DNA from: Minisyncoccota bacterium
GTDB lineage: Bacteria; Patescibacteriota; Minisyncoccia; Phycocordibacterales; UBA9973
Reading direction: 5' to 3'
DNA: 40,644 bases
Assembly (NCBI GenBank): GCA_018063015.1
Contig: JAGORC010000004.1
Location: forward strand, 1 to 40,644
Shown here piece by piece: positions 4,843 through 28,642 of the stretch (position 1 is its first letter; each line of letters opens with the position of its first letter). The translations under genes were made by a program, and so were the position numbers. The notes beneath the pieces were generated by a model. It saw only the letters and a program-made list of their open reading frames with translations. It ran no database searches and had not been told where the DNA came from.

Positions 4843-4871
4843 TTGACTATTTTGGGTAAATAGAGTAGTAT
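4843..4871 (+). promoter_or_regulatory. Promoter of secE-nusG-rplK
   Basis: TTGACT (4843-4848) and TAGTAT (4866-4871) are spaced by 17 bases. The same two hexamers with the same spacing precede rpsN (28614-28642). The predicted start is near 4878, inside the following hairpin. Confidence 0.75.
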
Positions 4872-4873
4872 TT

Positions 4874-4897
4874 AAAAAGCCCCTCGAGGGGCTTTTT
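4874..4897 (+). terminator. Terminator-like hairpin at the 5' end of the secE transcript
   Basis: AAAAAGCCCC-TCGA-GGGGCTTTTT is a perfect 10-bp stem with tetraloop. It would stop transcription from the upstream SIMPL gene, but it lies downstream of the secE promoter, so secE transcripts must also pass it. It may be an attenuator or a 5' stabiliser. No second promoter is visible between it and secE. Confidence 0.75.
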
Positions 4898-4924
4898 AAA
4901 AATAAGGAACAAATAAACCTAAAT

Positions 4925-10368: not shown

Positions 10369-11640
10369 ATGCATATGAAAACATCGTACGGAAGAGGTCC
10401 GAAGAAGTTCGGTCACTCTAAATTTGGCTCTAAGCCTAAACCTCGTTTTGGTTCAAAACCAAGCGGACCTGCTAGCTCAGGTAGATTTAAAAGTAAATTC
10501 AAATCTAGTTCTAAGAGGAGTGGAGGAGGTAGAGGGTCAAGAATAGATTATTCTCGTTTTATAAAGAAAGCAGAACACGTAGAGGAAAAGCCCTATAAGG
10601 CAAAACATAGTTTTATAGACTTTCCCTTCCATCCTCAGCTTCATAAGAATATTGCTAAAGCAGGATATATACACCCTAGGCCAATTCAAGATCAATCAAT
10701 ACCATCTACAATGGAAGGTAAGGATGTTTTTGGTATGGCTAATACTGGTACAGGTAAAACAGCCGCATTCTTACTTCCCCTTATAGATATGGTGATGAAA
10801 GACAGCAGGGAAAAGGTTTTAGTACTTGCACCTACTCGTGAACTAGCACTACAGATTGAAGCAGAGTTACGAACTCTAGCGGGAGGCTCAGGACTCTTTG
10901 GAGTGTCTGTTGTCGGAGGATTGCCAATCAATAAACAAATAAATGAAATAAGAATGGGAGTATCGTTTGTTATAGGAACTCCTGGAAGAGTAACAGACTT
11001 AATAAAAAGAAAAGTTCTAGATTTATCAAATTACAAGAGAGTAGTATTAGATGAAGCAGATAGAATGCTTGATATGGGATTCCGTGATGATATGGTGTTC
11101 ATTATTGGTAAGACTCATGCAGATAGACAAACTCTATTCTTCTCTGCAACACTTTCTCCTGAAATAAAGAAACTAACAACCCAATTCTTAAAGGACCCAG
11201 TATTTATTTCTGTTGTTTCTGGAGAAACAGCAAAGAATATTGATCAAGATGTAATTCATGTTAGAAGTAAAGAAGAGAAGATAGAAAGACTACATGAAGT
11301 ATTAAAGAAAGATGGCTCAGACAAAGTACTTATTTTCCGCGAAAGGAAGCACCATGTAGATGAACTTACTAAAGAACTAAACCATGCTGGATTTAAAGTT
11401 GGCTGTATTCATGGAGACAAAAGAAGTCGTGACAGAATTAGAACTCTTGATCTGTTCAAGCAAGATAAAATAAATATTTTAATTGCAACTGATGTTGCTG
11501 CACGAGGACTAGATATTCCAGATGTAACTCACGTAATAAACTTTGACGTTCCTCAGACTTATGAGACTTATGTTCATCGTATTGGCCGAACAGGACGCTC
11601 AGGCAAGAAGGGAACAGCCCTTACATTTGTAGGAGCATAA
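10369..11640 (+). CDS. DEAD-box ATP-dependent RNA helicase
   Basis: The 423-residue protein carries a basic, Gly/Ser/Lys-rich N-terminal extension (about 1-65) and then the two RecA-like domains. Seen in order: the Q motif (RPIQDQSIPS), ANTGTGKTAA, PTRELA, VLDEADRMLDMGF, FFSATLS, then VLIFRERK, TDVAARGLDIPDV and HRIGRTGRSGKKG. It ends right after motif VI, so there is no C-terminal RNA-binding tail; the basic N-terminus may replace it. Likely roles are ribosome assembly or mRNA unwinding. An in-frame second ATG lies 6 bases downstream of the first. It has its own promoter, structured leader and terminator. Confidence 0.95.
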   Translation: MHMKTSYGRGPKKFGHSKFGSKPKPRFGSKPSGPASSGRFKSKFKSSSKRSGGGRGSRIDYSRFIKKAEHVEEKPYKAKHSFIDFPFHPQLHKNIAKAGYIHPRPIQDQSIPSTMEGKDVFGMANTGTGKTAAFLLPLIDMVMKDSREKVLVLAPTRELALQIEAELRTLAGGSGLFGVSVVGGLPINKQINEIRMGVSFVIGTPGRVTDLIKRKVLDLSNYKRVVLDEADRMLDMGFRDDMVFIIGKTHADRQTLFFSATLSPEIKKLTTQFLKDPVFISVVSGETAKNIDQDVIHVRSKEEKIERLHEVLKKDGSDKVLIFRERKHHVDELTKELNHAGFKVGCIHGDKRSRDRIRTLDLFKQDKINILIATDVAARGLDIPDVTHVINFDVPQTYETYVHRIGRTGRSGKKGTALTFVGA

Positions 11641-12577: not shown

Positions 12578-12608
12578 TATTTGCATTTTTTTGATAGTTG
12601 TAGTAGAT

Positions 12609-12614
12609 TATATT
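12609..12614 (+). promoter_or_regulatory. -10 box of the rpsL-rpsG operon
   Basis: TATATT (12609-12614) has no -35 at the usual distance; TTGCAT at 12581 is 22 bases away. The predicted start near 12621 coincides with the base of the next hairpin. Confidence 0.45.
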
Positions 12615-12621
12615 CGAAGCA

Positions 12622-12643
12622 AAAGGAGTCTACGGACTCTTTT
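12622..12643 (+). terminator. Terminator-like hairpin at the 5' end of the rpsL transcript
   Basis: AAAGGAGTC-TACG-GACTCTTTT gives a 9-bp stem with one G-U pair and a UACG (UNCG-type) tetraloop, followed by GTTTT. It begins at the predicted transcription start, as at secE, tuf and rpsS. Confidence 0.65.
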
Positions 12644-12666
12644 GTTTTAAGTGAAATTTATAGAAA

Positions 12667-13932: not shown

Positions 13933-13957
13933 ATAGCTGCCTATCTCAGGCAGCTAT
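13933..13957 (+). terminator. Terminator-like hairpin after the small gene
   Basis: ATAGCTGCCT-ATCTC-AGGCAGCTAT is a perfect 10-bp stem followed by TTATTTGC. The T-run is weak. Confidence 0.65.
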
Positions 13958-13961
13958 TTAT

Positions 13962-13990
13962 TTGCAAAAAGGGGTGGTATGTTGTATATT
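13962..13990 (+). promoter_or_regulatory. Promoter of fusA
   Basis: TTGCAA (13962-13967) and TATATT (13985-13990), spacer 17. The predicted start is near 13997 with a leader of about 47 bases. Confidence 0.7.
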
Positions 13991-14000
13991 CTAAATACAT

Positions 14001-14020
14001 AAGACACGAAGGTCTTTTTT
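14001..14020 (+). terminator. Weak terminator-like hairpin at the 5' end of the fusA transcript
   Basis: AAGAC-ACGAAG-GTCTT makes a 5-bp stem followed by more T, then ATTTTT. It begins about 4 bases after the predicted start. It is the weakest example of the pattern seen at secE, rpsL, tuf and rpsS. Confidence 0.4.
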
Positions 14021-20778: not shown

Positions 20779-20807
20779 TTGACATTAGATTTTTAATCTG
20801 CTAATAT
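20779..20807 (+). promoter_or_regulatory. Promoter of the tuf-S10 operon
   Basis: TTGACA (20779-20784) and TAATAT (20802-20807), spacer 17. The predicted start near 20814 coincides with the 5' arm of the leader hairpin. Confidence 0.8.
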
Positions 20808-20812
20808 AGCAC

Positions 20813-20854
20813 AAAAGCCCCTTCGGGTTTTTTATATTGGGTGGGAACCCAATA
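20813..20854 (+). promoter_or_regulatory. Tandem hairpins in the tuf leader (first one terminator-like)
   Basis: AAAAGCCC-CTTC-GGGTTTTT (20813-20832, one G-U pair, six T) starts at the predicted transcription start. TATTGGGT-GGGA-ACCCAATA (20835-20854) follows at once with a GNRA loop. About 90 more leader bases lie before tuf. The gene upstream is on the other strand, so hairpin 1 is not its terminator. Confidence 0.7.
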
Positions 20855-20943
20855 AATTATAAATATTATTAATTTTTCTAGTAATTAAGCCTTAGTAACT
20901 GGTTCTCGTATACTGAGTCTTAGTTGGTAGCAACAATAAACAT

Positions 20944-24960: not shown

Positions 24961-24987
24961 AAAAAATCCCCGAAAGGGGATTTTTTT
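24961..24987 (+). terminator. Terminator after rplB
   Basis: AAAAAATCCCC-GAAA-GGGGATTTTTT is a perfect 11-bp stem, with the same core as at 13586-13609. It splits the S10 operon, which is continuous in most bacteria. Confidence 0.88.
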
Positions 24988-25065: not shown

Positions 25066-25093
25066 TTGACTTTTTTGGCCTATTTGCTAATAT
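25066..25093 (+). promoter_or_regulatory. Promoter of rpsS-rplV-rpsC and onward
   Basis: TTGACT (25066-25071) and TAATAT (25088-25093, preceded by TGC), spacer 16. The predicted start is near 25100. Confidence 0.72.
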
Positions 25094-25099
25094 CGGAGT

Positions 25100-25121
25100 G
25101 AGCTCTTGAGAGCTCGTTTTT
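25100..25121 (+). terminator. Terminator-like hairpin between the rpsS promoter and start codon
   Basis: GAGCTC-TTGA-GAGCTC is followed by GTTTTT and lies wholly between the predicted start (25100) and ATG 25124. The preceding operon already ends at 24987, so this element belongs to rpsS. Confidence 0.65.
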
Positions 25122-25123
25122 AT

Positions 25124-25471
25124 ATGACAAGATCGATTAAAAAAGGAATGTATGTGGACGAAAGGCTACTTAAGAAGATAGCCGGTAAAAGTCCGCTTCA
25201 AACACCAATAATTAAGACCTGGCTTCGTGCCTGTCAGATCTCTCCAGAGATGGTGGGGTTCACTTTTGGTGTGTATAACGGTAAAAGCCACATAGAAGTA
25301 CTGGTTACAGAAGATATGGTAGGTCACAGACTTGGAGAGTTTTCTCCTACAAGGAAATTCGTTAAGCACGGAGGTAAGATGCAGAAGGAACTTGAGGCTA
25401 AGAAGAAAGAAGCTGAAATAGCTCAGGCTAAAGCAGCAACAGAAGCTACCACAGGTGCAGCTAAGAAATAA
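25124..25471 (+). CDS. rpsS: 30S ribosomal protein S19
   Basis: The 115-residue uS19 begins MTRSIKKGMYVDERLLKKI. The frame is open to a TTG at 25106, but that lies in the hairpin. The core ends with MVGHRLGEFSPTRKFVKHGGK, followed by a Lys/Glu/Ala-rich tail of about 25 residues not found in E. coli. It sits in the 30S head with S13. It is the first gene of the second S10-operon segment. Confidence 0.95.
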   Translation: MTRSIKKGMYVDERLLKKIAGKSPLQTPIIKTWLRACQISPEMVGFTFGVYNGKSHIEVLVTEDMVGHRLGEFSPTRKFVKHGGKMQKELEAKKKEAEIAQAKAATEATTGAAKK

Positions 25472-28613: not shown

Positions 28614-28642
28614 TTGACTATTTAGCTTGTGTTTGTTAGTAT
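28614..28642 (+). promoter_or_regulatory. Promoter inside the spc operon, before rpsN
   Basis: TTGACT (28614-28619) and TAGTAT (28637-28642), spacer 17: both hexamers and the spacing equal the secE promoter. The predicted start is near 28649. Confidence 0.75.

Follow-up and report, generated by a model that had tools for sequence, protein, structure and literature searches.

Hairpins followed by a U-tract lie flush with the predicted transcription start of translation operons in Nomurabacteria-like Paceibacterota

Among translation operons, those of rpsL and of rimP-nusA have leaders predicted to terminate transcription prematurely, their 5' UTR carrying a weak terminator-like hairpin with a U-tract (Naville and Gautheret 2010, PMC2965389). 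The rpsL leader has no common sequence across species and the rimP leader lacks a visible antiterminator; these leaders are longer than those considered below (180 nt in B. subtilis rimP) and were described gene by gene (PMC2965389). A stem-loop at or near the 5' end is also found in abundant mRNAs, such as ompA and papA in E. coli, and in Bacillus, where 5' hairpins stabilize mRNAs and RppH requires at least two unpaired 5' nucleotides (PMC3997798). Finally, in the terminators controlled by AlpA and Q, an intrinsic terminator lies downstream of the controlling promoter and its fate is decided at initiation; as a feature of their own, these systems depend on a nozzle protein bound at the promoter and on a sigma pause (PMC9371919).

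The element described here shares one or another trait with each of these systems, yet we found no description in the literature of a hairpin and U-tract arranged flush with the transcription start. Unlike in the rpsL and rimP-nusA leaders, the hairpin lies at +1, and one architecture spans rRNA, tRNA, ribosomal proteins and elongation factors. To our knowledge, an adjacent U-tract is no part of the ompA, papA and Bacillus stem-loops; unlike these, the present element also occurs on rRNA and tRNA precursors, in genomes where RNase E was not found. The boxB-boxA sites of rrn leaders likewise present a hairpin and then a U-rich stretch near the rRNA start, but here the hairpin begins at +1 and a boxA is at most putative.

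The element was recognized in a stretch of 40,644 nt (hereafter the window), contig 8 of a 619-kb genome that is closest, among named organisms, to Ca. Nomurabacteria and other Paceibacterota. A preliminary description had claimed hairpins at, or within a few bases of, the starts of secE, tuf, rpsS, fusA and rpsL. All five were found at the places given, on the forward strand, beginning at the predicted +1 in secE, tuf and rpsS and at +5 in fusA and rpsL. The secE-nusG promoter (TTGACT-17-TAGTAT, 4843-4871; -35 at 4843-4848, -10 at 4866-4871), kept in 20 of 22 congeneric secE leaders, precedes the stem-loop AGCCCC-TCGA-GGGGCT (4878-4893), which is flush with the predicted +1 at 4878 and runs into a U-tract (4893-4897) whose first U pairs with the +1 A. 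In tuf, a promoter with an extended -10 (TTGACA-17-TAATAT, 20779-20807; -10 at 20802-20807) is followed by the stem-loop AAAGCCC-CTTC-GGGTTTT (20814-20831), flush with the predicted +1 at 20814, and then by a further T. The rpsS promoter, also with an extended -10 (TTGACT-16-TAATAT, 25066-25093; -10 at 25088-25093), precedes GAGCTC-TTGA-GAGCTC (25100-25115), again flush with the predicted +1 (25100); the tail reads GTTTTTAT and the rpsS ATG lies at 25124. The fusA promoter (TTGCAA-17-TATATT, 13962-13990; -10 at 13985-13990; predicted +1 at 13997) is followed by AAGAC-ACGAAG-GTCTT (14001-14016) and a U-tract up to 14020. For rpsL, the earlier reading gave a -10 and no -35; alignment with relatives assigned a TTGCAT-17-TAGATT promoter (12581-12609; -35 at 12581-12586, -10 at 12604-12609), with a predicted +1 at 12616 and a stem-loop at 12620-12644 followed by TTTTA. 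Distinct from these elements are a terminator-like hairpin upstream of the fusA promoter (13933-13957) and a terminator 3' of rplB, upstream of the rpsS promoter (24961-24986). A search of the window against Rfam 15 gave tRNA as the sole match, the hairpins corresponding to no curated family. In the secE promoter of the window (4843-4871) and of congeners, a conserved inverted repeat, ACT.TTTT...AAAAGAGT, surrounds the spacer between -35 and -10.

All transcription starts are predicted, the +1 being taken as the 7th nucleotide after the -10 hexamer, which is the usual sigma-70 distance. Promoter scores are ad hoc and genes were called by simple ORF rules. Since promoter-like sites, as consensus matches, are no commoner than in shuffled sequence, single promoter calls prove nothing, and conservation and register were used instead. 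Independent support for the register came from genes with no leader. Among 494 ORFs of the window's genome (G000; sampled stretches plus the window, 526 kb or 85% of the genome), the first ATG most often lies 6 nt past the -10 of a promoter scoring at least 10.5 (25 genes), distances of 7-9 nt being the next most frequent; about 13 genes fall between 15 and 30 nt, and the control inside genes gave 5 matches in total. An identical 6-nt peak (22 genes) was seen in a second species (G003). Judging from these distances, many mRNAs with recognizable promoters look leaderless, with the AUG at +1, in both species; secA, rplU, rpsO and rplM have short or absent leaders. In other Patescibacteria, too, many of the rpsL mRNAs look leaderless.

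Conservation was assessed in congeners comprising about 24 species of Ca. Nomurabacteria-like Paceibacterota, which are related, so that counts are not independent. For each leader the best promoter in the 250 nt upstream was picked blind to hairpins. The GC core of the hairpin begins 6-9 nt past the -10 in 20/22 secE, 14/16 tuf and 17/19 rpsS leaders, and in 10 of the 13 fusA leaders having both elements; for rpsL, the spacing between hairpin and promoter is looser than in the other genes. When 87 congeneric leaders are aligned on the -10, the mean folding profile (22-nt window) dips only once, at +1, where it reaches -7.4 kcal/mol, the baseline being -0.82 kcal/mol (sd 0.26 across offsets). 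An A occupies +1 in 82% of these leaders, and T, with a frequency of about 0.35 nearby, climbs to 0.67-0.87 around +17 to +22. The predicted +1 is paired, with no unpaired nucleotide before the stem, in 63 of the 76 hairpins detected, stem extension having been halted at +1 by design, so that some stems may pair further upstream in the DNA; the fusA and rpsL hairpins of the window, and those of nusA and typA, have unpaired nucleotides before the stem. In the 76 leaders the U-tract directly follows the GC stem, the geometry of an intrinsic terminator placed in a 5' UTR. The leader beyond the hairpin varies freely in length, from 27 to more than 200 nt. Genome-scale scans found terminator-like hairpins 5 to 11 nt past promoters scoring at least 11 at a rate of three to four per genome, most other offset bins within 50 nt downstream holding 0-2.

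The preliminary description was to be abandoned if related genomes did not conserve a hairpin at these positions; the comparison was run and the hairpin is kept in congeners. In other families of the order the folding minimum persists in weaker form (-3.7 vs -1.0), and 20 of 26 named rpsS loci with a promoter of at least 11 have the hairpin. Outside the S10-promoter group, rpsS has neither its own promoter nor the hairpin, as expected. A phylum-wide distribution was rejected, no clear +1 hairpin being visible in rpsL leaders of 30 other Patescibacteria. The rpsS hairpin sequence itself, GCUC...GAGC, is kept in most, not all, families of the order, which exceeds structural need.

Several observations favour an RNA rather than a DNA element. 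Folding is stronger for the sense strand than for the template (-7.3 vs -5.9, p=2e-7, the leaders not being independent), and G-U pairs are common in stems. In the rpsS stem, 81% of cells are paired, as opposed to 29-53% when the stem is slid. The preliminary description had looked to covarying stems in related leaders, and this was borne out modestly: the rpsS covariation score was reached by 4 of 500 shuffles, in an imperfect MAFFT alignment. Covariation by MAFFT columns is only moderate because loops misalign, and the shuffle z-scores of secE are weak because the segment is blocked into GC and AT. A DNA cruciform is disfavoured by the poorer folding of the template strand. A shared operator is unlikely, given stems that vary in sequence from gene to gene; a copied repeat was rejected on the same ground.

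The earlier suggestion of a shared architecture rather than a copied sequence held, stems varying by gene at a constant position, and it could be extended: the same arrangement precedes nusA, typA, tRNA-Ile, a tRNA-Met cluster and the rRNA operon. The nusA hairpin is conserved in three genomes, and the nusA and typA stems begin several nucleotides past +1. The rRNA operon leader of five congeners has a longer stem with a bulge, after which comes TTTTTGTTT or a similar sequence (also ATTT); the leader in the window's own genome is arranged likewise. Shortly before 16S rRNA there is a recurrent T-rich motif resembling TTTTGTTCCGTTC (L296-L308, L280), possibly boxA-like.

Scans of 526 kb of the window's own genome and 400 kb of a congener returned mainly translation genes at promoters of at least 10; matches below that score were varied, a purH candidate being one of them. 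In 85% of the genome, 94 strong promoters in non-coding sequence were listed; about 50 are leadered and have an assigned gene, and of these just four, namely rpsS, secE, tuf and the tRNA-Met cluster, fold to -5 kcal/mol or lower at +1. The split between translation and other genes gives a Fisher p of about 1.5e-5, with counts made by hand. The claim that genes outside translation do not have the hairpin thus stood for these promoters, bar a contig-end site with no assigned gene (L153:12779; -6.2 at +1). Not every translation gene conforms: rpsO, rplU and rplM lack both leader and element, and a promoter-like site upstream of rpsN (28614-28642, forward strand) has no +1 hairpin.

The machinery for decay and termination was surveyed with one profile per protein in 21 draft genomes. 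RNase J is present in all 21 and NusB in 18. Neither RNase E/G nor Rho was found above cut-off in any of the 21; weak matches to Rho span only the ATPase region and resemble other ATPases. Decay of the RNase E type, part of the preliminary proposal, is thus a poor fit, and with no Rho found, termination must be intrinsic or proceed via other factors.

On comparative sequence grounds, the element is genuine in its existence, register, conservation and gene set, and points to a device, not recognized before, that would control or protect transcripts as soon as their synthesis begins. We tentatively favour a leaky terminator or pause, flush with the start and acting on its own transcript, slightly ahead of protection of the 5' end and with a barrier to upstream read-through third. 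The element itself is a stem-loop of about 15 nt in the sense-strand RNA, directly followed by 4-8 U and flush with the predicted start in operons of the translation apparatus (rRNA, some tRNA, ribosomal proteins, EF-Tu, EF-G, SecE-NusG, NusA and TypA). In this model, a polymerase at about +20 to +25 would have made nothing but a minimal intrinsic terminator, and a fraction of complexes would pause or terminate there. How large a fraction escapes would depend on the state of the polymerase itself, through NTP supply, sigma release and NusA/NusG, rather than on an RNA switch; growth genes would thus share a leaky elongation checkpoint close to the start.

One argument for termination or pausing is the U-tract, which stays flush with the stem in elements of unrelated sequence; it does so on rRNA and tRNA leaders too, for which neither translation nor mRNA stability matters. 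The folding minimum lies exactly past the -10, the gene set is coherent and some 50 other leadered promoters have no element; the better folding of the sense strand, some covariation in rpsS, the failure to find Rho and the presence of NusB in 18/21 genomes agree with it. Weak terminators before rpsL and rimP-nusA also form a recognized class of predicted attenuators (PMC2965389). Against it, only 41 of 76 hairpins pass as terminators by the d score, those of tuf, rpsS and rpsL being mostly weak: with this E. coli-derived score, d>0 was obtained for 19/21 secE, 11/11 fusA, 3/13 tuf, 7/19 rpsS and 1/12 rpsL hairpins. The hairpin cores are weaker than the genome's 3' terminators (median -9.3), in line with what has been reported of 5' terminators (PMC2965389). 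Termination does not need to be flush with +1, an arrangement that it fits merely as being "as early as possible", and several ribosomal-protein mRNAs are leaderless and have no element. Neither an antiterminator nor a ligand site was found in the leaders, and no leader peptide was identified; several leaders are too short, and the length past the hairpin is variable. The AUG lies 0-8 nt past the U-tract in fusA of G001, G002 and G017 and in rpsS of G000 and G003, which leaves no room for an antiterminator. Classical attenuation is thus disfavoured; of the start-proximal attenuation proposed earlier, the ordinary antiterminator type was dropped and early termination or pausing without an antiterminator is retained as the best guess.

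It is doubtful, if conceivable, that such a terminator or pause would act globally, setting the output of the translation apparatus at about nucleotide 22 of rRNA, tRNA and ribosomal-protein RNAs in a Rho-less, largely leaderless lineage, with no regulatory protein or RNA switch, for instance by sensing NTPs. The control of ribosome synthesis in Patescibacteria has been little explored experimentally, and a single position-defined element on rRNA, tRNA, ribosomal-protein and elongation-factor operons offers a concrete, testable entry point, in a setting with RNase J, no detected Rho or RNase E/G and many leaderless mRNAs. A general question raised is how polymerase behaves when the first 22 nt themselves form a terminator.

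Protection of the 5' end is possible, if somewhat unlikely. With the triphosphate-bearing first base held in a blunt stem, an RppH-like pyrophosphohydrolase and the 5'-3' exonuclease RNase J could not start, and the most abundant transcripts would live longer. The paired, predicted +1 in 63/76 hairpins, within the limit of fewer than about 2-4 unpaired nucleotides expected ahead of a stabilizing 5' stem, and the presence of a 5'-end-dependent nuclease, RNase J, in 21/21 genomes with no RNase E/G found are as this model would have them, as are the free length of the leader past the hairpin and the Bacillus precedents for RppH and 5' hairpins (PMC3997798). It leaves the conserved U-tract unexplained, however, and tuf and rpsL have weak stems, with cores of -3 to -5 kcal/mol. 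Likely abundant leadered mRNAs, such as those for type IV pilin and secreted proteins, have no element, whereas rRNA and tRNA precursors do, and the nusA and typA stems begin several nucleotides past +1. Two features thus have to be explained: a shield accounts for the stem being flush with +1, and termination or pausing for the U-tract being flush with the stem. Retention of the U-tract on rRNA and tRNA leaders and behind later-starting stems (nusA, typA and, in the window, fusA and rpsL) is what placed termination or pausing ahead.

Alternatively, a terminator just inside the transcribed region could act as a one-way gate, blocking read-through from upstream while complexes started at +1 would be too young (sigma bound, no NusA) to terminate. 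No separate terminator precedes the promoter in 53 congeneric leaders with a co-directional upstream gene, Rho was not found in the 21 genomes, and in secE an A-tract upstream of +1 would make the hairpin a full terminator for read-through RNA. We nevertheless consider a gate unlikely: the hairpin is kept in 11 leaders with a separate upstream terminator and, small ORFs making some calls unsure, in up to 10 with a divergent neighbour; rpsL, never accompanied by another terminator, has the weakest terminator score; and a gate does not need to be flush with +1. The persistence of hairpins beside separate terminators and divergent genes led us to reject terminators of upstream genes as the sole cause.

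E. coli rrn leaders bear a hairpin and boxA, and by analogy the hairpin and U-rich tail could be a lineage-specific, boxB-boxA-like site for loading a processive, Nus-dependent complex onto rRNA and ribosomal-protein transcripts. The rRNA leaders do show a hairpin followed by TTTTTGTTT or ATTT, and NusB is encoded in 18/21 genomes; the base interrupting the U-tract is not fixed between genes, however, and the stem sequence varies freely, making this quite improbable. It is scarcely credible that the hairpins are ordinary 3' terminators of upstream genes that by chance follow promoter-like sequence, with the true start elsewhere, for although the promoters were called by consensus and such matches are just as common in shuffled sequence, the register is fixed to about 1 nt across many species and several gene families, leaderless starts share it and rRNA leaders carry the hairpin.

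Other features were noted in the leaders. In tuf, a second conserved RNA-like element, GCCTTAGYGACTGGTTCTCGTACGYTRAGT, lies between the +1 hairpin and the ATG (20884-20925 in the window; also L034-L053), and its TTCTCGYRCG core is kept in other families. A related palindromic repeat, TTACCCC.GTGAAAT...ATTTCACRGGGT, occupies the same interval in different genes of several genomes (L022, L024, L083, L089, L103, L123) and appears to have been inserted like a small mobile repeat. Upstream of fusA in G011 (L109), a second fusA-like start, ATGGAACGGGATTATCCACTAGAGG, is found between hairpin and ATG, perhaps through partial duplication. Elsewhere in the window, an ARAGORN call for tRNA-Pyl (10395-10472) within a DEAD-box helicase ORF is probably a false positive. 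The small genome to which the window belongs also contains an AdoCbl-II riboswitch (L280:7075-7175, reverse strand).
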